Source: Clostridia bacterium (GTDB taxonomy: Bacteria; Bacillota; Clostridia; Christensenellales; Aristaeellaceae). Taken from it: 64,000 nucleotides of DNA. The notes below the pieces were generated by a model. The model worked only from the letters and a program-made list of their open reading frames with translations. It was not told the origin of the DNA and searched no databases. The stretch lies in the NCBI GenBank assembly GCA_017447185.1, contig JAFSOC010000016.1, positions 1 through 64,000 on the forward strand, written 5' to 3'. The position numbers were made by a program, and so were the translations under genes. Positions 379 through 54,715 of the stretch are shown here, piece by piece; position 1 is the first letter of the stretch; each line of letters starts with the position of its first letter.

Positions 379-3300
379 CGGAAGAGACGGCTCCGGATGA
401 GGATCAGGAGCCCCACATCTTTGAAACAGAGGTCACCGGGGAAGACGGGCAGGTTTACCGGATCACGGTAAAAACCGGTCCCTGTTCCGGCATACCCGCG
501 AAGGCGGTACTTTCTGTGCGCCTGATCCGGAAAGGAAGTCCGGAATATGAGGAAATTTTCGACAAAGCAGGGGAAACCCTGCAGGACGGGCAACAAATGG
601 AGGACTTTTTCGCCTTCGATATCTGCCTGGTGGATCCCGGGGATCCGGAGGTACACTATCAGCCGGTGGATGAGTCTCTGGTTTTCGTGTCCATTACAGT
701 GCCGGACCTGAAGACGGCTGAACAGGATTCGGAGATGCAGGTTTTGCATTTTACGGAAAACCGCCCTGAAGAACCTGAAATTCTGCATACGGAAAGTATT
801 CCGGAGGGAGAGGAAACCCAACGGGTTTCCTTCAGCACCGGAAGCTTTTCCACCTTTGTGGTGATGAAAACCACCGCTGCGGAGGGGACCATTACTGTGG
901 CCTGTGAAGGCGTCAGCGGGGACGTGGAATGTACTTTGCTGACTGCCGACATAGAAACCATCGGAACCGCCGGGCAGGAAACCTGGTTTTCCTTTGAGGA
1001 TGCTCTTACATTCAGCAAAAGGCCGGAGATTCAGGGAACGGTGAACCTGGTGCTCCGAAACGGGAAAACGCTGACCGCTCCGAAAGGAATCAATCTGCTG
1101 GATGGCAGTAAACTGGTGATCCGGCAGGAACAGGGAAAAAGCGGCAGTGCGTTACTGAATGCAGTCGTCACGGACACGACGGTGAAAGACTCCGCCGGAA
1201 TCGGCGGGGACGGGGTCCACCAGAAGGCCGGAAGCCTGGAAATATACGGCGGAACCATCACGGCCCAGGGCGCAAGCTTTGCTGCCGGCATCGGCGGAGG
1301 AAACGGGGGATACAGCGGGGCGATTACCATCCACGGCGGGACGGTCAATGCCACCGGCGGTCACAGTGCAGCCGGCATCGGCGGCGGTGAAGCCGGAAGC
1401 ATGTCCGGAACGCTGACGATCCTTGGCGGTACAGTAAATGCTGCCGGCGGAGATTACGGGGCTGGTATCGGCGGCGGACAGTATTTTTCTGATGACGTTC
1501 AGTGCGAGAAAATGGTGGGCGGAAACGGCGGAAATGTCGTTATTTCCGGCGGAAGCGTTACTGCAAAGGGAGGGTTCGGAGCTTCCGGTATCGGCGGCGG
1601 AGATGCCGGTTCAGGAGGAACCCTGAGCATAAACGGCGCCGCTGTCGTGGCGGCTTCATGCGGAAATGCGGAAGGAGACGCCGCTGCCGGGCCCGAAGCC
1701 ATCGGACGGGGAGACTCCACCATCCGGAATTCAGGCAGCGAGATTTCCTCCGGAAAAATCGTTTTTTCCGGCAGCACCAAAGTTTATACGTCCTGTTCAG
1801 CCGATCCGGAAAAGGATGAACCGGTTGCGCAGGAACAGCGTACGGAAGCCTGCAGAGCCGGAGAAGTAAAGATCGTGTCTTCCGCGGACGCGGAGGAATA
1901 CAATATCATTGCACAACTGATTCACAGCGCAGCCGGTACAGAGGAAGATGAAAAGATATCTGTATTCAATGATACGGGCGAAGCCATCTCCGCGGCAGCG
2001 GCCGGAACCGTATTTACGGTTCAGGTTACCTGCAGAAAGCAGACGCCGGCAATCTCCTGTCAGACAGCTGCTGTTTATACAGAAAAGGACCGGGAGAAGA
2101 ATCTGACGCTTTCCGGACCGGAAGAGACCGAAAAGGACGAAATCCGGACTCTGACTTACACAGGCACCATGCCGGAAGCGGAACTGACGATTTCCGCCAC
2201 GCTGACCCGTAACCAGAAGAATATTACCATTGACAGCTATGATCATACCGTCGGAACCGTCACAGTGAACCCGGAAAAGACAGCGCCCGGAGAACGGCCG
2301 ATTCTTACCTTTGCGGCCAACGAAGGCTATGAGGAGTACTGGCTGAAAACGCTGAAGGTGACAGGCGTATCCAGCCAGACGGTTTACGCGGAAATCAGGG
2401 AAACCGGCATGCCCGAGAATATCACAAACACGGACAGCGACGGGCATAACTGGCAGTTTGTGATGCCGGACGAAGATGTGATTCTTACGGGAATCACCTT
2501 TGGAAGAGGCACGCATTATATTGATCGCAGCGGTGTGCGCACGCCCCGGAGGCAATGCTTTGAGGCGACCGGGGACATGACGGAATGGAATGATAGCGGA
2601 GCAGAAGACGGCTGGTATGTGGTCCGGGGCGAGGTGACCATGAACGGCACGGTTCACATCTGCCGGGAAGTGAATCTTGTTCTGTGCGACGGCGCGAAGA
2701 TGATTGCGCCGAAAGGAATTGTTGTGGACGCGGGCATGGGCGGAGCCCTGTACCTCTGGGCACAGGAAAAGGGAACCGGATGCCTGGAAGCCACCGGTGA
2801 TGAAAAAGCAGCAGGGATCGGCGCCACAAAGAAAATTGAGAGCGGACCGATTCGTATCTTCGGAGGTCAGATCTCCGCATGGGGACAAACGGATGCTGCG
2901 GGAATCGGCGGAGCTTATCAGAGCTATGTGAAAGGTGACGGCATTACGATCGGCGTTCCGGCGGGCTATCCGGATACTTTCACAACTGTGAATGCCTGGG
3001 GCGGAGAGAACGGCTCCGGCATTGGCGAGGGCAACGCGCATAACGGCGGAGGCGTAACCATTACCGGCGGAACCGTCAATGCCTGGGGCGGAGAGGACGG
3101 TGCCGGCATCGGCGCGGGCCAGGATAACGATTTGTTCAGGCCGATTGTGATTACCGGCGGTAACATCCATGCCTACGGCGGAAAGAACGCTGCCGGAATC
3201 GGACTGGGGCCCCGGTACGCAGATCACGGCGGAAACATGCGGAACACCATTGAGATCAGCGGAAAGAACACCTATGTGTATGCGGAAGGCGGATCGGAAG

Positions 3301-6300
3301 ACGGTGCCGGCATCGGTACCGGTGAAAGAGGCAACATGGAGGGTACCATCACGATCCGGGAAGCGACGGTGGAAGCGATAGCTCATGAGGGTGCAGCCGG
3401 AATCGGCGGCGGTTACAAGGGCAGCACCAATAAAGGAACCATTACCATTGAAAGCGGAAACATCACCGTCCGGGTGACGGATGGAAACGGTGCGGGTATC
3501 GGCAGCGGTGAAAAGGACGACTGCGGAACCATCAACATTCAGGGCGGAGTTATTCAGATCTATACCAACGGAAAAGGCGGCAGTCTTGGCGGATCCAAGG
3601 GAGAAGGCAACGGCACCCTGACTCTGAATCCCCATACGCTGGTATCTGCCGGATCCGACGGAAACTATGTACCTGCAGGGGACCGGACAGGAACCTGCTG
3701 GAGCGGGGATGTCAATTACCTGAAAATTGAACCCTGCACGCACCCGGGCGGAACGATCGCTCCGGTAGATCATGTCAATCATGTTGTTACCTGCCAGTGG
3801 TGCGGGTTTAACAATGAGCCGGAAGAGCATTCCTACGGGACCGACCGGAGCCAGGAAAGCTTTTATCGGTGCGCCTGCGGATACAGCCGCAAACGGCTGG
3901 TGACGGGAACAGCGGACCGGGAAGGTTTCGGCAGCGTTACGATGGGTCTTTCCCCTGACAGCATGAAGGAAGAAAAACTGGAAACCATTCCCGGAGAAAC
4001 GGTATATGTCCATCTGGAACCTTCGGCGGGGGCCCGGATTGCCGGGTTCAGCGGAAGCTACTTTGCAGAAGGGGATACGGAACCCCGGGCTTTCGGTGAA
4101 TTCTCGGCATTTCCGGCGGACACCGGGAAAAACTATCAGTTTGCGATGCCGGATCCGGATGACGACAGACCGGAACTGACGCTGACGATGGAAACCCAGG
4201 GCGGTGAAAGCGCCCCGATTCCGGATCTGGATGAATACGGGGTTACCTATCTGTCGGTAAAAACCACAGCGGGAGAAGAATATCTGATTGCCCAGACGGA
4301 AGAGGAAGCTGAGCAAAAAGAAAAAGAACCGGGAAACTGGGTTTCTTCTGATGGGGAAATTCTCGACTTTGAAGGCCTTGAACCCGGGAAGACCTATTTG
4401 ATTTACGGCCGGAACAAAGCTGTCGGGGAGGTTACCGCAGGACCGAAATCCAAGCCTCTCCGGGCTGCAACCGATCAGGAACTGGACAGCCTGCAGCTGT
4501 TCCGGAGGGACGATCTGCGCGTCGGAGAAGTGATTACAGCTCTTCCGATTCCATTCCCGGCCGGAAAGCTGACCTTCCAGTGGTACCGGGATGACGAGGC
4601 GATCAGCAAATACACGAGCGCGTCCTATGTGCTGACAAATGCGGATATCAATCATACTCTGAAGATTCAGGTGACACAGATCATCGACAAAAAAGGAAAC
4701 GTGAAAACCGCGGAGCAGACCGTGAAGTTCAGCCCGTCCGGTTCCGTCTGGCTGGTGTACCAGAGGGCAGACGGCAGCTGGGAAAAAGCGGATACGATTC
4801 CGGCGGATCAGAAGGCGGAAGGAAAATACACCCTTGACGAGGCAGGGCTGAAGAATCATGTGCCGGAAGGAACCGCAGGAGAAGGGTTCCGGCCGGTGGC
4901 CTACAGTTTCGGATACCAGGAAAAGGAAAGCCAGAGAACCGCCATTCCGCAAAACAAGGAAATCCTGATCCCCGAAAGCAACGCACAGCTGTATGTATAC
5001 TTTGAACGGAAAGTGTACGCGCTGAACTTTTACAGCAGCATGGAGGGGAAGGGAATACCGGAAACCTTCAGCGTCCGGTATGGAGCTCCGCTGAATGAAT
5101 TCAGCGGGAAAGCGGTTCTGCAATTCGGCAGCAGCTTTGCAGGGTGGAGCCAGAGCCCCAAACCGAAAGACACGGAATACGGCTACGTGACAGTTTCTCC
5201 GGGCGGCGGGGGAAAACCGAATTTTGTGCTGTTTGATCTGAACAGTGCCACCATGCCTGCCGCCGGAATGAATCTGTATCCCGTACTGATCAAACCCCGG
5301 GTAGAGGTGCGGCTGGATCCCGGCGCTGTGGATGCCAACGGAACCCGGCAGAATATGAACGGGTGGCAGAATCCGGTCGTTTATACGGATCAGACGACGA
5401 AAGCCTATCTGGACGGCGGTCAGTATCGCTGCTTCACCATCGTCAGCGGGGATTCCCTGCCGGCGGATACAATGAAACGGATGGCTGAAGTGACGCGGGA
5501 CGGTTATGAACCGGATGGATGGTATTCCGCCGGCGGCATCCGGTGGAATGAAGATCTGCACGCGCTTCCGGTATTCTGTGATACAACGGTGCCGGAAAAG
5601 AGGGAAGGAACTTCCAGTCTTTATTTTACGCTGACGCTGAAGGCGCGCTGGAAACTCCGGAATGCAATACTGCATTACGATGTGCAGGGACAGCCCTGGA
5701 ACGGAGAGGACCTGAAAGGCATTCGGCCCGGTACAGCAGTGGAGATTTCCAGGGAAACCGTAACGCCTCCGGAGGGAAAGATTTTCCTGGGATGGAAGGA
5801 TCAGAAAGGGAATTTCCATTCGGGCGGCTCCTCCATTCTCTATGATGATCTGGATCTGGTCAGTACCGTTGGAAACGGAGAGAAACCCAACGTCATTACC
5901 CTGGAGGCTGTGTTCTTTGAACATCAGCATATGGTTGCTTTTGATAGCCGGGGAGGCAGCTTTACCGAGCCCGTTCTCCTGAGCGAGGAGGATTATGAGG
6001 CCGGGAAGAGAACCGTCAGCCTGGAAGGAAAGACCTCAGAACGAAAAGGCGGAATCTTCAGGGGCTGGGCGCTGTCCCCCGATGCGGATGAAACGGAAAC
6101 CGTCACGGAGGTTTCCTTCGCAGACGGATCCGCCGTAATATGGGTTTATGCTCTTTGGGAGAACAGAAACTATTCCGTCTACTTCAGCGGAAACGGCGGA
6201 ACCGTGGACGGAAAGGCCATTCTCCGGCGGCAGTATACCTACGGTGAACAGATCAAAAAAGACGAAACGCCGGTTCCGGTCCGCAAGCACTACACGTTTG

Positions 6301-14867: not shown

Positions 14868-16046
14868 ATGCGGGTAAAGAGTTTTGAGACACTGATGGAG
14901 GAATATGAGCGGATTCTGGCGCGGCCGAATCCTCCGGACGAACATTTTTACAACGGGCTTTTTACGCGGTACAGGAATCCGGTGCTGACGCGGGAGCATA
15001 TCCCTCCTTTCTGGATGTATGATGCGAATCCGGCTGCGAATCCCTTCATGATGCAGCGGCTGGGCGTGAACGCCACGCTGAACAGCGGCGCCATCAGGCT
15101 GGGAAACAAATACTGTCTGGTGGTACGGGTGGAAGGCATGGACCGGAAGAGCTTCTTCGCTGTGGCGGAGAGCGACTGCCCCACGGAGGGATTCCGGTTC
15201 CGGAATTACCCGGTGATCCTGCCGGACACGGAAAAACAGGAAACCAACGTTTACGACATGCGCCTGACGCAGCATGAGGACGGATGGATTTACGGCGTAT
15301 TCTGCTCCGAAAGCAAGGATGAACAGAGCGCGGACCTGTCCGCGGCAGTGGCCGCAGCCGGCATCGTGCGGACGAAGGATCTGGAGAATTGGGAACGTCT
15401 GCCGAACCTGGTGACGCTCCGTTCTCCCCAGCAGCGGAATGTGGCGCTGCATCCGGAATTTGTGGATGGAAAGTACGCCTTCTATACCCGGCCCATGGAC
15501 GATTTTATTGAAACCGGCAGCGGCGGGGGCATCGGTTTCGGACTGTGCGACGATATTCTGCATCCGGTGATCGGGGAGGAGAAGATTATCTCCCGGCGGA
15601 AATACCATACGATCACGGAGGCCAAGAACGGCGAAGGCGCGGTGCCGATCAAAACGGACAAAGGCTGGATTCACCTGGCTCACGGCGTGCGCAATACGGC
15701 AGCCGGCCTGCGGTATGTGCTGTACGCGTTTGCCACGGACCTGCAGGATCCGTCGAAGCTGATCGCGGAGCCTTCCGGCATGCTGCTCGGACCGCTGGGA
15801 CGGGAGAGAACCGGCGACGTCAGCAACGTGGTGTTCACCAACGGCGCCATCGCGGATGACGACGGAAAGGTATATCTGTACTATGCTTCCTCCGATACCC
15901 GGATGCACGTGGCGGAAACGGATATCGAACGGCTGAAGGACTATGTGTTCAATACGCCGGAGGATCCGCTGCGCAGTCCTGACTGCGTACGGCAGCGGGC
16001 GGAGCTGATCCGCCGCAACCTTGAATTCCTGAACGAAAGAAGGTAA
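14868..16046 (+). CDS. GH130 4-O-beta-mannosyl-glucose phosphorylase
   Basis: Predicted to convert 4-O-beta-D-mannosyl-D-glucose and phosphate to mannose-1-phosphate and glucose. The 392 residues match the GH130_1 mannosylglucose phosphorylase pattern very well: [68 protein letters not shown] (catalytic Asp), [25 protein letters not shown] and [14 protein letters not shown]. It works with the 2-epimerase at 11558, the established two-step mannobiose route in Bacteroides and Ruminococcus. ATG follows ACGGGGAT; the next gene starts 4 bp after its stop. Confidence 0.93.
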
Positions 16047-16050
16047 GGAT

Positions 16051-17553
16051 ATGCTGCAGCCGGCATCCCTGTTTACAGACGGCGCGGTCCTTTGCAGAGA
16101 CCGGGAGATCCGGATTTTCGGACGTGCGGAAAGCGGAAAAACCGTGACGGTACAGCTGCGGGACGCGAGGGGAAGCCTGCTGGCAGAGGAAAGCGGAACC
16201 TCCCGGAACGGGCGGTTTGAAATCCCGCTGCCGCCCCAGCGCGCGCAGGCGGGATGCACGCTGACCGTCAGCACGGAAGGAGAACGGGTAACGGCGGAGG
16301 ATGTTGCCGTCGGCGACGTTTACCTTGCCGGCGGGCAGAGCAATATGGAACTGGAGCTGCGCAACAGCGCGGGCGGGGCCGGACAGGTCCGGGACGATCC
16401 GCTGCTGCGCTTCTTCAACGTGCCGCGAAAAGCTTTTGTCTGTGAGGAACAGCAGCGGGCGGTCCGGGAAACCCGATGGAATCCGGTAAACCGGGAAACA
16501 GCCGGTTACAACAGTGCGGTGGCTTCCATTTTCGGCCAGATCGTGCGGACGAGGCATCCGGAAATCCCGGTGGGCATTATCGGATGCTACTGGGGCGGAA
16601 CTTCCGTTACCTGCTGGATGGACGACGAAACCCTTGGCTCCCTGAGCGAGGGGATCCGCTACCGTCAGGCATACCAGGCCCTGTGCGGCGGAAAAACAAT
16701 GGAGCAGTATCTCGCGGAGGAAGCCGCGTTCAACGCATACTGCGAAGACTGGAACACGAAGGCGGACGCTTACCGGGCGGGGCACCCGGACGCGGGCTGG
16801 GAGGAAGTCCAGGAAACCGTCGGCCGGTTTGAATGGAATCCGCCGGCCGGGCCGGGATCCCCCTACCGTCCGGCCGGACTTGCGGACAGCATGCTGGCGG
16901 AGATCGCGCCGGTTTCGCTGACCGCGGTGCTGTTTTACCAGGGAGAGGAAGACGCGTCGCGGACAGACTGCTATGACGTGCTGATGACCGCGATGATCCG
17001 GTATTGGCGGAGCATCTTCCGCAACGCGGAGCTGCCGTTCCTCTTTGTCCAGCTGCCGATGTGGCTGGACAACGGCGCGGAGGATACCTTCCAGTGGCCG
17101 AAAACCCGGCTGGCGCAGGCTGCCGTGCGCGACAGCGTGCGGAATACAGGAATGATCTGCCTGCTGGACGAGGGAGAATACGGTAACATTCATCCTGTGA
17201 ACAAACAGCCCGTTGGAATCCGGCTGGCGGAACTGGCGGAACGGATGATCTACCACGGAACGGGGGAAGTGTCCCCGCACGCCGTGGGACGCTTTGTGCG
17301 CGGAAATACCATGATTGTCGTGATGAGCGCGAAGGTGCGGACGAAGGACGGCGAAGCGCCGCGCCTGCTGGAAATCGCCGGAGAAGACGGCAGGTTTGTG
17401 CCGGCGGAAGGCGAAGTGGAGGAAGGAGTTCTCCGGATCCGCGCGGAACAGGTGAAACATCCCGCGGCGGTACGGTACGCCTGGTGCGACTGGTCGGACC
17501 GGGTGAACCTGACCGGGGAGAACGGACTGCCGCTGGAGCCTTTTGCACTGTAA
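16051..17553 (+). CDS. SGNH-family acetylesterase, probable mannan deacetylase
   Basis: Belongs to the sialate O-acetylesterase-like SGNH hydrolases (500 residues). An N-terminal beta-rich region (residues about 1-85) precedes the nucleophile motif GGQSNME (Ser97). The oxyanion-region motif GCYWGGTSVTCW is near residue 180, FYQGEED is near 295, and the catalytic Asp/His segment DEGEYGNIHP has His381. There is no signal peptide, so it acts on imported sugars. The start lies 4 bp after the GH130 stop, indicating translational coupling. In this setting removal of acetyl groups from mannooligosaccharides is more likely than sialic acid chemistry; this is inferred from context. Confidence 0.8.
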   Translation: MLQPASLFTDGAVLCRDREIRIFGRAESGKTVTVQLRDARGSLLAEESGTSRNGRFEIPLPPQRAQAGCTLTVSTEGERVTAEDVAVGDVYLAGGQSNMELELRNSAGGAGQVRDDPLLRFFNVPRKAFVCEEQQRAVRETRWNPVNRETAGYNSAVASIFGQIVRTRHPEIPVGIIGCYWGGTSVTCWMDDETLGSLSEGIRYRQAYQALCGGKTMEQYLAEEAAFNAYCEDWNTKADAYRAGHPDAGWEEVQETVGRFEWNPPAGPGSPYRPAGLADSMLAEIAPVSLTAVLFYQGEEDASRTDCYDVLMTAMIRYWRSIFRNAELPFLFVQLPMWLDNGAEDTFQWPKTRLAQAAVRDSVRNTGMICLLDEGEYGNIHPVNKQPVGIRLAELAERMIYHGTGEVSPHAVGRFVRGNTMIVVMSAKVRTKDGEAPRLLEIAGEDGRFVPAEGEVEEGVLRIRAEQVKHPAAVRYAWCDWSDRVNLTGENGLPLEPFAL

Positions 17554-17586
17554 GAAAACCGACCCATACTGTGGGGGTATATTCAC

Positions 17587-19965
17587 TTGAAAAAACTGAA
17601 TCTTTGCGGAACATGGACCATGACCGGAGAGGACGGACGCAGCTTTCCGTCGGAAGTTCCGGGCAGCGTGCTGAAGACGCTGCTGGACCGGAAAGCCATA
17701 CCGGATCCGTTTGACGGAATGAACGAATACGCCGCCTGCGCGGAGACACGGCACAGATGGCATTTTGAGCGTGCCTTCACGGTTTCCGGCGAAGACCTGG
17801 AGCACAGCGCCGCAGACCTTGTGTTTGAAGGACTGGATACGCTGGCGGCCGTGGAACTGAACGGACAGACCGCCGCCCGGACGGACAACATGCACCGCAC
17901 CTGGCGGATTCCGGTGAAGCAGATGCTGCATCCCGGTGAAAACCGGCTCCGCGTCACCTTTGATCCGGCGATGACGTATGTGGAGAAGGCGGCGGAAAAG
18001 AACCCGGAAGTATCCTACGACGGCGGCAGCGAACTGAAAGGAACCGGCTTCCTGCGAAAGGCGCACTATATGTTCGGCTGGGACTGGGGCCCGAGGCTCC
18101 CGGATGCCGGAATCTGGCGCGGGGTACGGATCGAGTTCTTTGACAGCCGGCTGGAGGAAATCCGGATTCACCAGGACCATAAACCGGACCGGGTCGAACT
18201 GGAAATCCGGATCCGTACCGGCGCGGAGCAGGCTGCCGTGGAACTGACGGATCCGGACGGCAAGGCGATCGCGGAAGGGAAAGGAGAAGCGGAAAGCCCG
18301 GTCCGCCTGTGCGTAAAAGAGCCGAGGCTGTGGTGGCCGAACGGCCTGGGGGACCAGCCGCTTTACACCCTGAAGATCGAAGCCCGCAGCGGCGGCAGAA
18401 CCGAAGACGAAAAAACGCTGCGGATCGGACTGCGGACAATGACTGTTTCCCGGAAACCGGACGCATGGGGGGAAAGCTTTGCCCTGTGCTGCAACGGTAC
18501 GGATTTTTTCGCGATGGGCGGGGATTATATTCCGGAGGATAACCTGCTGACCCGGATGAACCGGGAAAAGACGCGCCGGCTGCTGCAGGACTGCAGGGAC
18601 TGTCATTTCAACACGGTCCGGGTCTGGGGCGGAGGCATCTATCCGGATGACGATTTCTATGACCTGTGCGACGAGATGGGCCTGGTGGTCTGGCAGGATC
18701 TGATGTTCGCCTGCAACACCTACAAGCTGACGGATTCCTTCCGGGAGAGCATCGTGCGGGAAGCGGAGGACAACCTCCGCAGGATCCGGCATCACGCGTC
18801 CCTCGGACTGGTCTGCGGGAACAACGAGATGGAAACGGCCTGGCTGGGGTGGGGCGGCGTAATGAACCAGCCGGAAAGCCTGAAACAGGATTATCTGGAG
18901 CAGTTTGAACACCTGCTGAAGGATGTCTGTCAGCGGGAGGCGCCGGACAGCTTCTACTGGCCTTCCTCACCGTCCTCCGGCGGCGGGTTTGACGATCCGA
19001 ACAGCCTGGACCGGGGCGACGTGCACGACTGGTCTGTATGGCACGGACGGAGGCCTTTTTCCGACTTTACGGAACGGTATCCGAGGTTCTGCTCCGAATT
19101 CGGGTTTGAATCCTTTCCCTGTATGGATACGCTGCGGACCTTTGTGCATGAGGAAAGGGAAATGAATCCTTTCTCCCGGGTCATGGAGAATCACCAGAAA
19201 TGCCTGTCCGGGAACGCGACGACGCTGTATTACATCAGCCAGACGCTGCGTTATCCGTTCTCGATGGAGAAACTGGTGCACGCGAGCCAGTGGCTGCAGG
19301 CGGAGGCCGTAAAGGCCGGCGTGGAGCACTGGAGAAGAAACCGGGGGCGCTGCATGGGCGCCGTCTACTGGCAGATCAACGACTGCTGGCCGGTGGCAAG
19401 CTGGGCCGGAATCGACTCATCCGGAAGGTGGAAAGCGCTGCAGTACCGGGCGCGGCATTTCTTCGCGCCGGTGGCGGTGAGCCTGCGCCGGGAGGAAAAG
19501 GGATACAGCGTCCACGTGGTAAACGAACGGCGTGAACCCTTCCGGGGGACGGCAGCGTGCACCGTCCGGGATGAAAAGGGCGGAGCGGTGCGGAAACTGA
19601 CTCTGGATGTTCGCTGCCCGGCGCTGAGCAGCGTGAACGCCGGGACGGTTCTGCCGGCGGACGGGGAGGAAATGAAAATCGTACAGTGCGTGCTGCGGGA
19701 TGAGGCGGGCAGCACCGTCAGCGAATGCGAGGAACTGTACACGCTGCCGAAATACTTCCCGTTTGAAAAACCGGAAATCCGTATCACCTGCAGGGGAAAC
19801 AGCATTACGCTGGAGACGGATACCTTCTGCACCGGGGTGGAACTGCAGGCCGGGGACGCGCGGTTTTCCGACAACTGGGTAACGCTGTATCCCGGCGAGA
19901 AAAAGGAACTGACGTCGGACCGCGAACTCCGCGCGGAGGAACTGCGGGTGCTGTGGCTTGAATAA
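17587..19965 (+). CDS. GH2 beta-mannosidase
   Basis: Hydrolyses terminal beta-1,4-linked mannose. 792 residues with GH2 architecture: N-terminal sugar-binding jelly roll (LNLCGTWTM to about 165), immunoglobulin-like domain with the RLWWPNGLGDQPLY landmark, TIM barrel with acid/base Glu414 in CGNNE, nucleophile Glu504 in CSEFGFESFP, and C-terminal beta domains. The WGGGIYPDDDFYDLCDEMG stretch is typical of the mannosidase branch. The start is a TTG behind GTGGGGGT; the next ATG would cut the first strand. No signal peptide. Last gene of the mannan operon; no hairpin terminator is evident after it. Confidence 0.88.
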   Translation: MKKLNLCGTWTMTGEDGRSFPSEVPGSVLKTLLDRKAIPDPFDGMNEYAACAETRHRWHFERAFTVSGEDLEHSAADLVFEGLDTLAAVELNGQTAARTDNMHRTWRIPVKQMLHPGENRLRVTFDPAMTYVEKAAEKNPEVSYDGGSELKGTGFLRKAHYMFGWDWGPRLPDAGIWRGVRIEFFDSRLEEIRIHQDHKPDRVELEIRIRTGAEQAAVELTDPDGKAIAEGKGEAESPVRLCVKEPRLWWPNGLGDQPLYTLKIEARSGGRTEDEKTLRIGLRTMTVSRKPDAWGESFALCCNGTDFFAMGGDYIPEDNLLTRMNREKTRRLLQDCRDCHFNTVRVWGGGIYPDDDFYDLCDEMGLVVWQDLMFACNTYKLTDSFRESIVREAEDNLRRIRHHASLGLVCGNNEMETAWLGWGGVMNQPESLKQDYLEQFEHLLKDVCQREAPDSFYWPSSPSSGGGFDDPNSLDRGDVHDWSVWHGRRPFSDFTERYPRFCSEFGFESFPCMDTLRTFVHEEREMNPFSRVMENHQKCLSGNATTLYYISQTLRYPFSMEKLVHASQWLQAEAVKAGVEHWRRNRGRCMGAVYWQINDCWPVASWAGIDSSGRWKALQYRARHFFAPVAVSLRREEKGYSVHVVNERREPFRGTAACTVRDEKGGAVRKLTLDVRCPALSSVNAGTVLPADGEEMKIVQCVLRDEAGSTVSECEELYTLPKYFPFEKPEIRITCRGNSITLETDTFCTGVELQAGDARFSDNWVTLYPGEKKELTSDRELRAEELRVLWLE

Positions 19966-19998: not shown

Positions 19999-20027
19999 TT
20001 GACAAGCCGCATGGAAAAGCGTAAACT
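19999..20027 (+). promoter_or_regulatory. Sigma-A promoter of the T-box transcript
   Basis: TTGACA (19999-20004) and TAAACT (20022-20027) are spaced 17 bp. The inferred start is near 20034, just before stem I of the T-box leader. Confidence 0.75.
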
Positions 20028-20034
20028 CCCGTTA

Positions 20035-20300
20035 AAGGCCTTGAAGGAGAGGGTTACGGAACCTCGGCAATCAGAGACGCGGCGGTTGGTGCGAGCCGCG
20101 GGAAGAGTCCGTCAGCTGTCACTCCGGAGCCGGAAGGAAGAAAGCGGAAGCAAGTAGAACCTTCCCGAATCTGCCGCGTAAGGGCAAAGGGCTTCACGGG
20201 AGCCTGAAGGGGCGGTGTTTCACCGCAATTTGAGTGGTACCGCGGGTGTGTGTTCATGCTCGTCTCAAAGAATGATCATTTGAGACGGGCATTTTGTTTT
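20035..20300 (+). promoter_or_regulatory. T-box riboswitch leader
   Basis: Senses uncharged tRNA and controls the downstream gene by antitermination. Stem I: GGAG (20046-20049) pairs with CTCC (20122-20125). Above the specifier loop CGGA-C (20057-20062) pairs with GTCCG (20107-20111). The distal arm GCGGC...GCCGC carries the conserved GGTGCGAG element (20088-20095). The T-box core GAGTGGTACCGCGGGT is at 20232-20247. A terminator follows, with CGTCTCAAA (20261-20269) pairing with TTTGAGACG (20279-20287). The specifier loop 3' strand is 20112-20121; by position before the closing stem the specifier is GTC (20118-20120), a valine codon. The class is certain; the specifier is tentative. Confidence 0.93.
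20259..20300 (+). terminator. T-box regulated terminator
   Basis: A 9-bp stem, CGTCTCAAA with TTTGAGACG (extendable by CT/GGC mismatched pairs), is followed by ATTTTGTTTT. It overlaps the region that would otherwise pair with the T-box sequence as antiterminator. It ends 24 bp before the ATG at 20324. Confidence 0.88.
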
Positions 20301-20323
20301 ATCAGAGGGAAGGAAGTAAGACT

Positions 20324-22621
20324 ATGGCACAGATGACGGGACTGAATTACAAGATTCAGGAGATGGCTCACCGGATTCGGGAACTTCGGGAGATTGAAAA
20401 CTTCACCATCGCGGAGATGGCGATGAAGACCGGGGTTACGGAGCAGGAGTACATTGACTGCGAAATGGGGCGGAGCGACCTGAACTTCGCTTTCCTTTAC
20501 CGCTGCGCTTTGGCTTTCGGCGTCGACGTCGGGGATATCATCGAAGGTTCCAGCCCGAACCTGAATTCCTTTACCGTCACCCGGAAGGGCGAAGGCCAGC
20601 GGATTGAGGAAGCCCACGATATGGTGTATTTCAACATGGCATCCTCCTTCCGGAACCGGATCGCCGAGCCCCTGTACGTGCAGGCGGCCTACAGCGCGGA
20701 CGCGGAGAAGGAAGATATCAAGCTGACTACCCATGAGGGCCAGGAATGTGATATCGTCATCGAAGGCCAGCTGAAGGTCCAGGTGGGCGAGCATATCAGC
20801 GTGCTGAACCCCGGGGACAGTATCTACTATGATTCCGGTACGCCCCACGGCATGATCGCCGTGGGCGGCAAAGACTGCCTTTTCTACGCGATCGTCCTCA
20901 ATCCCACCGGTGCCCCGATTCCGGAGCTGACGCCGGAAAAGGTGCTGCCCGGTATGGCACTGCAGGAATTCCCGGCGGAGAACGGCCGGACCCGCGTCTG
21001 GCACCGCTATGCGGATGTGGAGAAGGACGAGAACGGCACGCCGGTGAAGATCACCTTCAAGAACACCGAAAAGTTCAACTTCGCCTTTGACGTGATCGAC
21101 GCGATCGCGGACGAAATCCCGAACAAGCTGGCGATGCTCCACCTGGACAAGGATAAGAACGAGCACCGTTTCACCTTCAACGACCTGAAGCGGGCTTCCA
21201 ACCGCTGCGCCAACTATTTCAAGTCCCTGGGCATCAAAAAGGGCGACCGGGTCATGCTGGTGCTGAAGCGGCACTACCAGTTCTGGTTCTCCATCCTGGC
21301 GCTGGAGAAGATCGGCGCCATCGCGATTCCGGCGGTGGCCCAGCTGCAGGAGCACGACTTTGAATACCGGTTCAACGCCGCCGGCGTGAAGGCCATCATC
21401 TGCACCGCGGACGGGGACACCGCCCACCAGGCGGACCTGGCCGCGAAGGATGCGCCGAGCCTGGAACTGAAGCTGATTGTGAACGGAACCCGGGAAGGCT
21501 GGCATAACTTCGACGAGGAATACCAGATGTATTCCACCCACTATAACCGCACGGAAGATACGCCCTGCGGCGATGACCTGATGCTGATGTATTTCACCTC
21601 CGGCACTACCGGTTATCCGAAGATCGCGGCCCACAGCTACAAGCATCCCCTGGGTCACCTGCATACCGCCAAGTACTGGCACTGCGTCAATCCCAACGGC
21701 CTGCACCTGACCATCTCCGATACCGGCTGGGCGAAGGCCGGCTGGGGTAAAATCTACGGCCAGTGGCTGTGCGAAGCGGCCATCTTCGTCTACGACTTTG
21801 ACCGCTTTGACGCGGCAGACATCCTGCCGCTGTTTGCGAAGTACCATATCACCACCTTCTGCGCACCGCCCACCATGTACCGGATGCTGATCAAGCAGGA
21901 CCTGAGCAAGTACGACCTGTCCTCCGTGACCCATGCCTCCAGCGCCGGCGAAGCGCTGAACCCGGAAGTTTACCGCCAGATCGAGCTGCAGACCGGCCTG
22001 CAGGTCATGGAAGGCTTCGGCCAGACCGAAAGCACCATGATCATCGGCAACCTGGCCGGTGCGGACCACAAGTTGGGTTCCATGGGAAAGGTAGCCCCGA
22101 TCTACAACGTGGCACTGCTGGATCCGGAAGGCAATCCCGTGCCTGCCGGTACCTCGGGCGAAATCTGCGTGGACATCTCCAGGGGCATCCCGATCGGCCT
22201 GTTCCAGATGTATTACAAGGATGAGGAAAAGACCCGGGAAGTCATGCATGACGGCTGGTACCACACCGGCGACCTGGCCTGGTGCGACGAGGACGGGTTC
22301 TACTGGTACGTGGGCCGGGCGGACGACGTGATCAAGTCCAGCGGCTACCGGATCGGACCGTTCGAAATCGAGAGCGTGATCATGGAGCTGCCCTACGTGC
22401 TGGAATGCGGCATCAGCGCCGCGCCGGACGAGGTGCGCGGCCAGGTGGTCAAGGCCAGCATCGTGCTGACCAAGGGCACGGAACCCACGGATGCGCTGAA
22501 AAAGGAAATCCAGGAATATGTCAAGCAGCACACGGCACCCTACAAGTATCCCCGGATCGTTGTTTTCCGGGACGAGCTGCCCAAGACCGTCAGCGGAAAG
22601 ATCCAGCGGGCGCTGCTGTAA
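20324..22621 (+). CDS. HTH-cupin-acyl-CoA synthetase fusion
   Basis: 765 residues in three parts: an XRE-type helix-turn-helix (about 10-70), a cupin domain (about 120-195, with GQECDIVIEGQLKVQVG and SGTPHGM), and an AMP-forming acyl-CoA synthetase (about 250-765). The synthetase has the P-loop YFTSGTTGYPK (near 422), the adenylation motif YHTGDLAW (near 645), GYRIGPFEIES and the catalytic-lysine tail KTVSGKIQRALL. It most resembles medium-chain/branched acyl-CoA synthetases. The start is the ATG at 20324 behind GAGGGAAGGAAG; an upstream in-frame TTG lies inside the terminator. The T-box implies induction by amino-acid starvation. The acid substrate is unknown; short branched or aryl acids used as amino-acid precursors are plausible. 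Confidence 0.88.
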   Translation: MAQMTGLNYKIQEMAHRIRELREIENFTIAEMAMKTGVTEQEYIDCEMGRSDLNFAFLYRCALAFGVDVGDIIEGSSPNLNSFTVTRKGEGQRIEEAHDMVYFNMASSFRNRIAEPLYVQAAYSADAEKEDIKLTTHEGQECDIVIEGQLKVQVGEHISVLNPGDSIYYDSGTPHGMIAVGGKDCLFYAIVLNPTGAPIPELTPEKVLPGMALQEFPAENGRTRVWHRYADVEKDENGTPVKITFKNTEKFNFAFDVIDAIADEIPNKLAMLHLDKDKNEHRFTFNDLKRASNRCANYFKSLGIKKGDRVMLVLKRHYQFWFSILALEKIGAIAIPAVAQLQEHDFEYRFNAAGVKAIICTADGDTAHQADLAAKDAPSLELKLIVNGTREGWHNFDEEYQMYSTHYNRTEDTPCGDDLMLMYFTSGTTGYPKIAAHSYKHPLGHLHTAKYWHCVNPNGLHLTISDTGWAKAGWGKIYGQWLCEAAIFVYDFDRFDAADILPLFAKYHITTFCAPPTMYRMLIKQDLSKYDLSSVTHASSAGEALNPEVYRQIELQTGLQVMEGFGQTESTMIIGNLAGADHKLGSMGKVAPIYNVALLDPEGNPVPAGTSGEICVDISRGIPIGLFQMYYKDEEKTREVMHDGWYHTGDLAWCDEDGFYWYVGRADDVIKSSGYRIGPFEIESVIMELPYVLECGISAAPDEVRGQVVKASIVLTKGTEPTDALKKEIQEYVKQHTAPYKYPRIVVFRDELPKTVSGKIQRALL

Positions 22622-22641: not shown

Positions 22642-22676
22642 GGAAAGCAGGAAGGATATTCCTGCTTTCCGCGTTT
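22642..22676 (+). terminator. Terminator after the acyl-CoA synthetase gene
   Basis: A perfect 12-bp stem, GGAAAGCAGGAA (22642-22653) with TTCCTGCTTTCC (22659-22670), has a 5-nt loop and is followed by a short GCGTTTT tract. It lies 20 bp after the stop. The weak T-run may allow some readthrough into the next gene. Confidence 0.65.
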
Positions 22677-53537: not shown

Positions 53538-54512
53538 TTATTCATAACTGCCGGATGGCAGTTCGTCCTCATCAATGTCTTCCGGGATAATGAAATCGTT
53601 GTCCTGCGGGGGCAGGTCGCCGGAATCCGCAAAGGGGATATAGGCGCTGCCGGAGTTGAACATCTCGTAAATCACTTCATAGTGCGGGTCCTTGACGCCG
53701 GTGGCCGGATCCTCTCGCCAGCCGTTGTCCGTGGGCTGGCCCAGGTATTCGATCCGGGTGTTGGGAAGGGCTTCCTCCAGCTCCTGCCGCTCCGCCGCCG
53801 TCAGCTCCATCTTTTCCATCCTGCCGCGGCACATGCCGGAGATCCAGAGCCTCTTCAGCCACTTCATCTCCTTCAGGGGACGCCAGTCCTTCACGGCATT
53901 GTTGGCCAGGTTCAGATCCATGAGGTTCGTCAGCTTCGTAAGGGGGGAGATGTCGGTAATGCCGCAGGAGAAAAGCTCCAGGTATTCCAGCTCCTTCATC
54001 TCTCCGACGACTTCGATATTCTTCAGGCGGTTGTTGTCCCCCAGGATCAGCACCCGCAGGTCGGGCATGTTCAGCAGGAAGGAGATATCCGTCAGGTTGT
54101 TGTGCCCCAGGTCCAGGGCTTTGAGCTTTTTGCAGTATTTCAGCAGGACAAACTCGGAGCTCTTGTGTTTCGGGTGTAAACCGTGCAGGGTGGAATAGGC
54201 TTCGGCGTCGGAACGGATGATGTGGTAGTACATCATCTTCAGCGTCCAGCCAAACTCAATCTGCGGGAAGGCCCTGACCAGCTTCTCCACCCGGGAGGCG
54301 TCCACCGTGGTGGCAAACATGTCCACCTTTTTCAGGTTCGGGAATTTCTTCAGGAAGGAACTGAAACCGTTCCAGTCCCGGACCGTCTGCTCCCCGAGGT
54401 CGATAGTTTCGGCATCCCTGTCGAAGGAAACGCTGCCGAAAGAGACCTGCTCCGCCAGGGCTGTCCCGCACAGCAGCAGGAGAGCCATCAGGAGGGCGGA
54501 AAACTTTTTCAT
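53538..54512 (-). CDS. Exported leucine-rich repeat protein
   Basis: 324 residues. Signal peptide (about 1-20, MKKFSALLMALLLLCGTALA). About six LRRs of the internalin-like type follow (LKALDLGHNNLTDISFLLNM, LEYLELFSCGITDISPLTKL, LMDLNLANNAVKDWRPLKEM), then an acidic Pro-rich tail (PPQDNDFIIPEDIDEDELP). Different repeat class from the BspA-like proteins. No anchor is visible. It has its own promoter (54559-54587) and is probably transcribed with metY. Confidence 0.82.
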   Translation of the reverse strand: MKKFSALLMALLLLCGTALAEQVSFGSVSFDRDAETIDLGEQTVRDWNGFSSFLKKFPNLKKVDMFATTVDASRVEKLVRAFPQIEFGWTLKMMYYHIIRSDAEAYSTLHGLHPKHKSSEFVLLKYCKKLKALDLGHNNLTDISFLLNMPDLRVLILGDNNRLKNIEVVGEMKELEYLELFSCGITDISPLTKLTNLMDLNLANNAVKDWRPLKEMKWLKRLWISGMCRGRMEKMELTAAERQELEEALPNTRIEYLGQPTDNGWREDPATGVKDPHYEVIYEMFNSGSAYIPFADSGDLPPQDNDFIIPEDIDEDELPSGSYE

Positions 54513-54558
54513 CTCTGCAGATCCTTTCTTGCGTCATTCGTAAAAACAACCAAAAAAT

Positions 54559-54587
54559 ATTTTACCATGGTGGGAAGCGGCGGACAA
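54559..54587 (-). promoter_or_regulatory. Promoter for LRR-metY transcript
   Basis: Minus strand TTGTCC (54582-54587) and TAAAAT (54559-54564), spacing 17 bp. No SAM riboswitch or T-box is seen in the short leader. Confidence 0.75.
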
Positions 54588-54634
54588 GGGAAGGCCCGGA
54601 AAAAACCGAATGAAAAACAGGCCCCGGACCGGCA

Positions 54635-54663
54635 TTGAAGTTCCGCCGCCGGTATGGTAAAAT
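54635..54663 (+). promoter_or_regulatory. Promoter for the ABC exporter genes
   Basis: TTGAAG (54635-54640) and TAAAAT (54658-54663), spacing 17 bp, 52 bp before the first ATG. Confidence 0.75.
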
Positions 54664-54715
54664 CAAACAGTTACGTATTTAAGGAAACGAGTCAGAAAGT
54701 GAGGACCGGAACGGT

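Follow-up and report, generated by a model that had tools for sequence, protein, structure and literature searches.

Why should a T-box, a leader that controls amino-acid supply, stand before a gene whose product activates a carboxylic acid? The question is raised by the first 64,000 nucleotides of contig JAFSOC010000016.1 of a Clostridia bacterium (family Aristaeellaceae; GenBank assembly GCA_017447185.1), a stretch referred to below as the window. In it, a T-box leader precedes a gene encoding an acyl-CoA synthetase (ligase) that is fused to helix-turn-helix (HTH) and cupin domains. Our answer, to which we give a probability of about 0.82, is that the leader would be a class I transcriptional T-box for tRNA-Val that controls the ligase, and that valine starvation would induce activation of isobutyrate for reductive carboxylation to valine. 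It draws on the computed leader and specifiers, a matching tRNA-Val, a match between specifier and one ligase residue, gene neighbourhoods in relatives, the presence of genes for 2-oxoisovalerate:ferredoxin oxidoreductase (VOR), and the lack of detectable ilvC and ilvD.

The T-box leader and its specifier codon

The features of the leader are as follows.

20032-20270, forward: T-box leader (RF00230); cmscan, 83.2 bits, gathering score of 93 not reached
20046-20049, forward: 5' strand of lower stem I, GGAG, pairing with CUCC 20122-20125
20088-20095, forward: distal stem I element, GGTGCGAG / GGUGCGAG, from the sequence aligned to the RF00230 consensus
20118-20120, forward: specifier codon GUC (valine), its position fixed by the lower stem I pairing under a codon-blind rule
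20122-20125, forward: 3' strand of lower stem I, CUCC, pairing with GGAG 20046-20049
20229-20269, forward: antiterminator with the T-box bulge, -13.8 kcal/mol; 0 of 200 shuffles as good
20235-20244, forward: T-box core, TGGTACCGCG / UGGUACCGCG, from the sequence; its UGGU is complementary to the ACCA tail of tRNA
20256-20292, forward: intrinsic terminator hairpin with a T-rich tail to about 20302, -20.6 kcal/mol; 0 of 200 shuffles as good

The match covers the full model (positions 1-219) with an E-value of 1.3e-18 in an E-value scan. Like the class I transcriptional T-boxes of RF00230, the leader has a stem I with specifier loop and distal element, a UGGN bulge, and an antiterminator opposed to a terminator; the difference lies in its target, a carboxylic-acid-activating acyl-CoA synthetase. 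In folding, antiterminator and terminator are mutually exclusive, having the segment CTCGTCTCAAA / CUCGUCUCAAA in common. Folding also shows the terminator itself, which a simple terminator pattern scan did not list.

The specifier was read with a rule that is blind to the codon and uses only the lower stem I pairing and the spacing to the following GAG. The pairing of GGAG with CUCC puts GUC at the specifier position. The genome contains a tRNA-Val(GAC), whose anticodon matches this codon and whose discriminator base is read as A, so that the tRNA end fits the UGGU bulge. For other leaders of this genome, applying the rule manually yields UGG before a TrpB-like gene and, if the stem is taken as five pairs, ACC before threonyl-tRNA synthetase.

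A preliminary description of this DNA had already proposed a T-box leader with stem I, distal element, core and overlapping terminator upstream of an HTH-cupin-AMP-forming acyl-CoA synthetase. It had suggested a search with the Rfam T-box model, a look at the leaders of orthologues and a search for 2-oxoacid:ferredoxin oxidoreductase genes elsewhere in the genome. The Rfam model does match, below its curated cut-off, and confirms the leader; the domains of the protein were recovered by Pfam; and the two other searches, described below, found T-boxes before the orthologues and VOR genes in the genome. Specifier, valine/isoleucine pair, operon link and residue match go beyond what had been described.

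Specifiers of related leaders

A first collection comprised named and family loci with fused genes at least 53% identical to that of the window, 172 genes in all. A recognised T-box core precedes 160 of them. Of the 12 remaining, nine follow immediately on another ligase-coding sequence, in most cases as the second gene in a tandem. A further one is truncated by a contig end, another carries a variant core (TGGTTCCGCG) and the specifier AUC, and only L013 truly lacks the T-box. RF00230 matches each of the 19 fused-ligase leaders in ten selected genomes (E 8e-11 or better), and three of these exceed the gathering score.

Blind reading was attempted on 159 leaders (variant core included, leaders cut short excluded); six were unreadable. 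Val or Ile codons were read in 151 of the remaining 153: AUC in 86, GUA in 50, GUC in 12 and GUG in 3, the specifier thus varying synonymously among the Val-type relatives. The other two readings are stem mis-picks and by eye give GUA and AUC. Lower stem I covaries in the 153 read leaders (GAAG:CUUC 113, GGAG:CUCC 23, GAAA:UUUC 4, GAGG:CCUC 4, GGAA:UUCC 2, others 7), under a reading rule that itself demands pairing.

Does this hold beyond the family? A second collection was drawn from other families after the residue rule described below had been found; it has 80 rows, five exact duplicates of first-set leaders having been dropped. All 64 leaders that could be read in this class-wide draw specify Val or Ile. 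Of the 16 rows that gave no blind reading, six are full-length genes that lack a T-box and four are ligases with neither fused N-terminal part nor core; four more have a variant core or insufficient upstream DNA, and two are gene pieces. Four of the six (L292, L294, L297 and L298) belong to one genus (g72, family f20) and come from four of its seven matching genomes; they are Ile-type (Gly470) and by eye have TTGACA-like promoter sequences close upstream, in place of the T-box.

No core was found upstream of any of 31 distant relatives that are split or lack the HTH-cupin part, 27 of them checked over 700 nucleotides and the rest over less. Loci L068-L083 hold relatives 42-48% identical without T-box cores; the alignments of several contain in-frame stops, as would be seen if the HTH-cupin part and the ligase were encoded separately.

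In the window's own genome the only other match at E <= 1e-100 is a paralogue, 61% identical. It lies behind another T-box (G000:C39, 68 bits) whose specifier is AUC, for isoleucine. Such a match occurs in 72 of 120 family genomes, and 38 hold the gene at 53% identity or more, that of one (G070) being a fragment cut at a contig end. Across the class, 70 of 291 genomes drawn, in many families, match at E <= 1e-230. The best 80 of 594 named loci are all titled as metagenome-assembled genomes, and 45 of these 80 titles name an animal gut site or feces.

The ligase and residue 470

The gene and its flanks hold the following features.

20324-22621, forward: HTH-cupin-acyl-CoA synthetase, 765 residues, predicted isobutyryl-CoA synthetase (Pfam HTH_19/HTH_3, Cupin_2, AMP-binding, AMP-binding_C)
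21731-21733, forward: codon GCG of Ala470, at a predicted acyl-pocket position; Ala with GUN and Gly with AUC in blind-read leaders
19999-20027, forward: promoter-like site, sigma-70-like TTGACA-17-TAAACT (pattern scan, 10/12 matches; 1 found, 0.9 expected by chance)
22642-22670, forward: terminator-like hairpin after the gene (pattern scan; 3 found, 3.3 expected by chance)

The start codon is the ATG at 20324. The upstream site is only suggestive of a promoter, and the downstream hairpin suggests a single-gene transcript at this locus. The fused HTH-cupin part may provide a second, protein-level control.

Which acid might the ligase take? The best PDB sequence for the ligase part, at 749 bits (next best about 436), is 3etc, the medium-chain acyl-CoA synthetase MacsMa of Methanosarcina acetivorans. 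Its Lys256 and Trp259 are conserved as K471 and W474 in 160 of 160 aligned rows each (71 Val-clade, 87 Ile-type and two switched, see below), which together with the sequence relation places the protein among MacsMa-like enzymes. The 580-residue chain of MacsMa aligns only from profile position 206 and thus, unlike the window protein, has no counterpart of the HTH-cupin part. In 3etc there is a link between Lys256 and Cys298. According to PMC10455477, MacsMa prefers 2-methylbutyrate and its Trp259 is critical for substrate binding.

At one alignment column the two types never overlap: all 71 Val-clade rows have Ala at residue 470, and all 87 Ile-type rows have Gly. By alignment counting this residue corresponds to Gly255 of MacsMa, beside Lys256 and four before Trp259. 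MacsMa has Gly there as do the Ile-type copies; the Val-type copy of the window has Ala. Compared with Gly, the Ala of Val-type copies adds one methyl group, which would fit an acid with one carbon less. Residue 573 behaves alike but less strictly, being bulky in most Val-type rows, small in most Ile-type rows and Ile in the switched rows.

A quick protein tree made without bootstrap, with seven Val labels assigned by eye, puts the Val-type genes in one clade of 63 genes with Val leaders and eight without core (Shimodaira-Hasegawa-like approximate likelihood ratio test [SH-aLRT] 100). Counting labels on this tree asks for seven Val changes, since the core-less rows inside the clade count as another group. 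Two loci of one genus, L060 and L061, have Val leaders and lie inside the Ile-type part of the tree; the specifier has therefore changed a second time. These switched rows carry Ala470 and their Ile sister Gly470. By one criterion they resemble the Val type at 14 columns, including 470, 487, 568 and 573, and the Ile type at 28, of which 26 lie before residue 228.

Blind specifier and residue 470 agree in every one of 204 cases. In the first collection AUC goes with Gly in 80 of 80 rows and GUN with Ala in 60 of 60. For these 140 the stem was picked by a slightly changed rule; of the 160 rows, 11 were set aside as partial genes and nine because the leader was unread or odd, and those nine all carry the residue expected from their clade. 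In the second collection the figures are 47 of 47 (AUC-Gly) and 17 of 17 (GUN-Ala). Compared with the first-set proteins, 25 of these 64 rows are 90-98% identical, eight 80-90% and 31 under 80%, so that 39 are less than 90% identical to any of them.

VOR and ilv genes

The window's own genome has a VOR cluster whose VorB reaches 565 bits with model NF005507 (cut-off 399). It also has an indolepyruvate oxidoreductase and one Aminotran_4 protein. Neither ilvC nor ilvD was found in this genome, the assembly of which is 88.7% complete, and ilvC was not found in four congeners that are 96-99% complete; loss of the standard ilv route fits the reductive one but is no strict condition for it. Among the family genomes, VorB (E <= 1e-70) is present in 37 of the 38 with the ligase gene versus 37 of the 82 without (Fisher p 4e-9), and ilvC over cut-off in three of the 38 versus 38 of the 82 (Fisher p 2e-5), p values that are too small because the genomes are related. 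The three genomes with gene and ilvC over cut-off belong to two of 14 genera.

In 10 of the 38 genomes the ligase is followed, about 0.9-1.4 kb downstream, by VOR genes read in the same direction; in five others they are its divergent neighbours (14 of the 15 loci checked by tblastn; G083 from coordinates only). In G011 the stop of the ligase gene is overlapped by the gene that follows, in an array that reads ligase, P-loop nucleoside triphosphatase (NTPase), two-cluster ferredoxin, VorB, VorA, gamma subunit.

A small P-loop NTPase stands before the VOR ferredoxin in the four loci read (L052 at 5495-6163, L222, L223 and L229); it is CbiA/ParA-like by Pfam in L052 and by eye in the other three. 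In G047 a separate T-box (63.7 bits; position 3347 of the oriented locus L223; G047:C112:18118-18377) precedes the VOR operon itself (NTPase, ferredoxin, VorB, VorA, gamma). The specifier of this T-box is not readable with confidence: the rule gives GAA by hand, and the next frame AAT.

Proposed mechanism

When valine is short, the anticodon of uncharged tRNA-Val would pair with the GUC specifier and the ACCA tail with UGGU. With the tRNA bound, the antiterminator would form and the ligase gene would be read. The ligase would then convert isobutyrate, a fermentation acid, to isobutyryl-CoA; VOR would carboxylate this reductively to 2-oxoisovalerate, and an aminotransferase would make valine. 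Through the AUC specifier of the paralogue, isoleucine shortage would open a corresponding route from 2-methylbutyrate, its predicted substrate, to isoleucine. The substrates, the direction of VOR and the tRNA-dependent readthrough are what we infer here.

The preliminary description had tied activation of a carboxylic acid to uncharged tRNA, for amino-acid synthesis by reductive carboxylation, a view that the covariance match, the T-boxes of the orthologues and the VOR genes support. It had named isobutyryl-, 2-methylbutyryl- and phenylacetyl-CoA side by side. Because the specifier is a Val codon, isobutyrate is the most likely natural substrate of the window ligase; 2-methylbutyrate would belong to the sister system for isoleucine.

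Evidence on the other side and alternative explanations

Several observations weigh against the proposed mechanism. The leader scores 83.2 bits and so does not appear in a gathering-level Rfam scan, for which the curated cut-off is 93. The fold of the whole 286-nucleotide leader is not more stable than that of shuffled sequences (z -1.2; 23 of 200 equal it), and the same is true of the stem I stretch 20032-20130 alone (z 0.72). Some relatives do without the T-box: a same-genus member (G026, L013) and the six full-length genes of the second collection (L292, L294, L297, L298 and L313, all Gly470, and L287, Ala470). Only two origins of the Val specifier are independent, and the 204 agreements are far from being so; the rows are related, and therefore the independent evidence for the residue match is two matched changes. 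Short or split relatives without T-box mostly have Ala470 as well (26 of 31), so that Ala470 alone does not mark Val control. The genome's VOR beta and gamma subunit genes match related models below the cut-offs, and its VOR is not adjacent to the ligase, with no T-box detected before it; VOR is not a neighbour of the ligase in 23 of the 38 family genomes, this one included. Four family genomes have both gene and ilvC, three over the cut-off and one (G095) with a fragment below it. Finally, a search of all 43 tRNA places in the genome did not turn up tRNA-Ile(GAU), which the Ile copy would sense; in an assembly 88.7% complete this does not prove its absence.

Could the leader, then, be a decayed or chance T-box without function? 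Its subthreshold score and unremarkable fold would allow this, but a Val or Ile codon is conserved in 151 of the 153 homologue leaders that were read, whose lower stems show compensatory changes, and in all 64 of those read in the class-wide draw. We rejected the idea, which is hardly credible, on this conservation of specifier codons. Whole-leader folding energy is uninformative; what speaks for a T-box is the covariance match, together with the conserved motifs and the comparison of relatives. A more serious doubt is whether the acids have been assigned correctly. Val and Ile copies might be broad and overlapping in substrate, with residue 470 reflecting history instead of acyl choice: MacsMa and MbcS accept several acids, the residue is fixed in two clades with only two transitions, and Ala470 is also common in the T-box-less relatives. 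Yet in L060 and L061 Ala470 and a Val specifier occur together inside the Ile clade, in proteins that are Val-like at 14 columns against 28 Ile-like ones, 26 of which precede residue 228. We consider a wrong assignment unlikely.

The ligase might instead feed branched-chain fatty acid synthesis, isobutyryl- and 2-methylbutyryl-CoA priming FabH, with a T-box that merely senses starvation for shared precursors. The model is MbcS of Staphylococcus aureus, whose NCBIfam entry (NF047394) is the best for the ligase part. The purified enzyme, according to PMC10026030, is selective for 2-methylbutyrate and isobutyrate and supplies fatty acid synthesis, and the main text of that paper has no mention of T-box or ferredoxin. 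The MbcS cut-off is clearly missed, however (440.7 bits of 850), and MbcS is a single enzyme for branched fatty acids. The specifiers here split by amino acid; genes of VOR, which acts on 2-oxoacids, lie about 1 kb downstream in 10 of 38 genomes, and 35 of the 38 lack ilvC over cut-off. Fatty acid synthesis as the purpose thus seems improbable, and the two uses could coexist, the acyl-CoA being common to both. A catabolic direction, with oxidation of branched 2-oxoacids by VOR and ATP formation from acyl-CoA by the ligase, has in its favour that both kinds of enzyme are in principle reversible. But a T-box switches genes on at amino-acid shortage, which fits synthesis rather than breakdown, and, with neither ilvC nor ilvD detected, valine has to come from elsewhere. 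We regard this direction as very improbable.

Other T-box and ligase loci

A third T-box operon of the same genome, L233 (G000:C10:236500-246500, reverse strand), has its T-box at 859-1089 and genes at 1134-2555 and 2552-5068 of the reversed locus. The specifier by hand is CUG (leucine), and tRNA-Leu(CAG) is present in the genome. The genes encode a LeuA-like enzyme (HMGL-like and LeuA_dimer) and an 838-residue protein similar, on inspection by eye, to the AP_endonuc_2 - AMP-binding fusion of L046. In L046 and L048 the same gene pair stands behind a T-box, with CUC by hand. A leucine T-box on leuA has been predicted in Geobacter metallireducens (PMC2700814); like the third T-box here, it controls branched-chain amino acid synthesis, but its target is a standard biosynthetic enzyme, and the part of that paper available names no acid-activating ligase.

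At L187 (G000:C21:28000-37000) positions 1501-5517 hold a gene for an AMP-forming acyl-CoA ligase and, immediately after it, those for the alpha and beta subunits of indolepyruvate:ferredoxin oxidoreductase; the T-box scan of this genome gave no match there. The pair might serve an arylacetate route to an aromatic amino acid. At L002 (G000:C1, T-box 54453-54687) a T-box with UAC (tyrosine) by hand precedes a sodium/solute symporter, for which the best-scoring model is the proline symporter PutP, below its cut-off. In the window, 14868-19965 upstream of the leader holds a glycoside cluster with a GH130-like phosphorylase, a SASA esterase and a GH2 protein with mannosidase Ig domains.

Significance

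Isobutyrate and 2-methylbutyrate are growth factors for rumen bacteria. Their conversion to valine and isoleucine, respectively, in the rumen is described in PMC7356843 (citing Allison and Peel 1971; Robinson and Allison). The acids and amino acids are the same as those proposed here; genes and tRNA-responsive control are not described in the papers found. Nor did the literature searched report a T-box on an acyl-CoA synthetase, and the words CoA and acyl are absent from the main text of two T-box papers (PMC7778990 and PMC2494555); a prior mention in a 2008 comparative study in the journal RNA is possible.

We think it rather probable that this extends through the class Clostridia: paralogous acid-activating enzymes would be programmed by tRNA, the T-box codon naming the amino acid whose precursor is activated; pocket and codon would co-evolve (Ala470 with Val codons, Gly470 with AUC, and an independent switch); and a leucine branch would act on a LeuA-like enzyme and a TIM-barrel-ligase fusion.

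The finding would add carboxylic-acid activation to the kinds of step governed by T-boxes. It offers candidate genes, a control signal and a sequence rule, combining T-box codon and residue 470, that predicts the acid of each enzyme, and a nutritional question about the rumen becomes one at the level of genes. If true, T-box codons would point directly to the substrates of uncharacterised acyl-CoA synthetases and would show which gut bacteria live on branched-chain fermentation acids.

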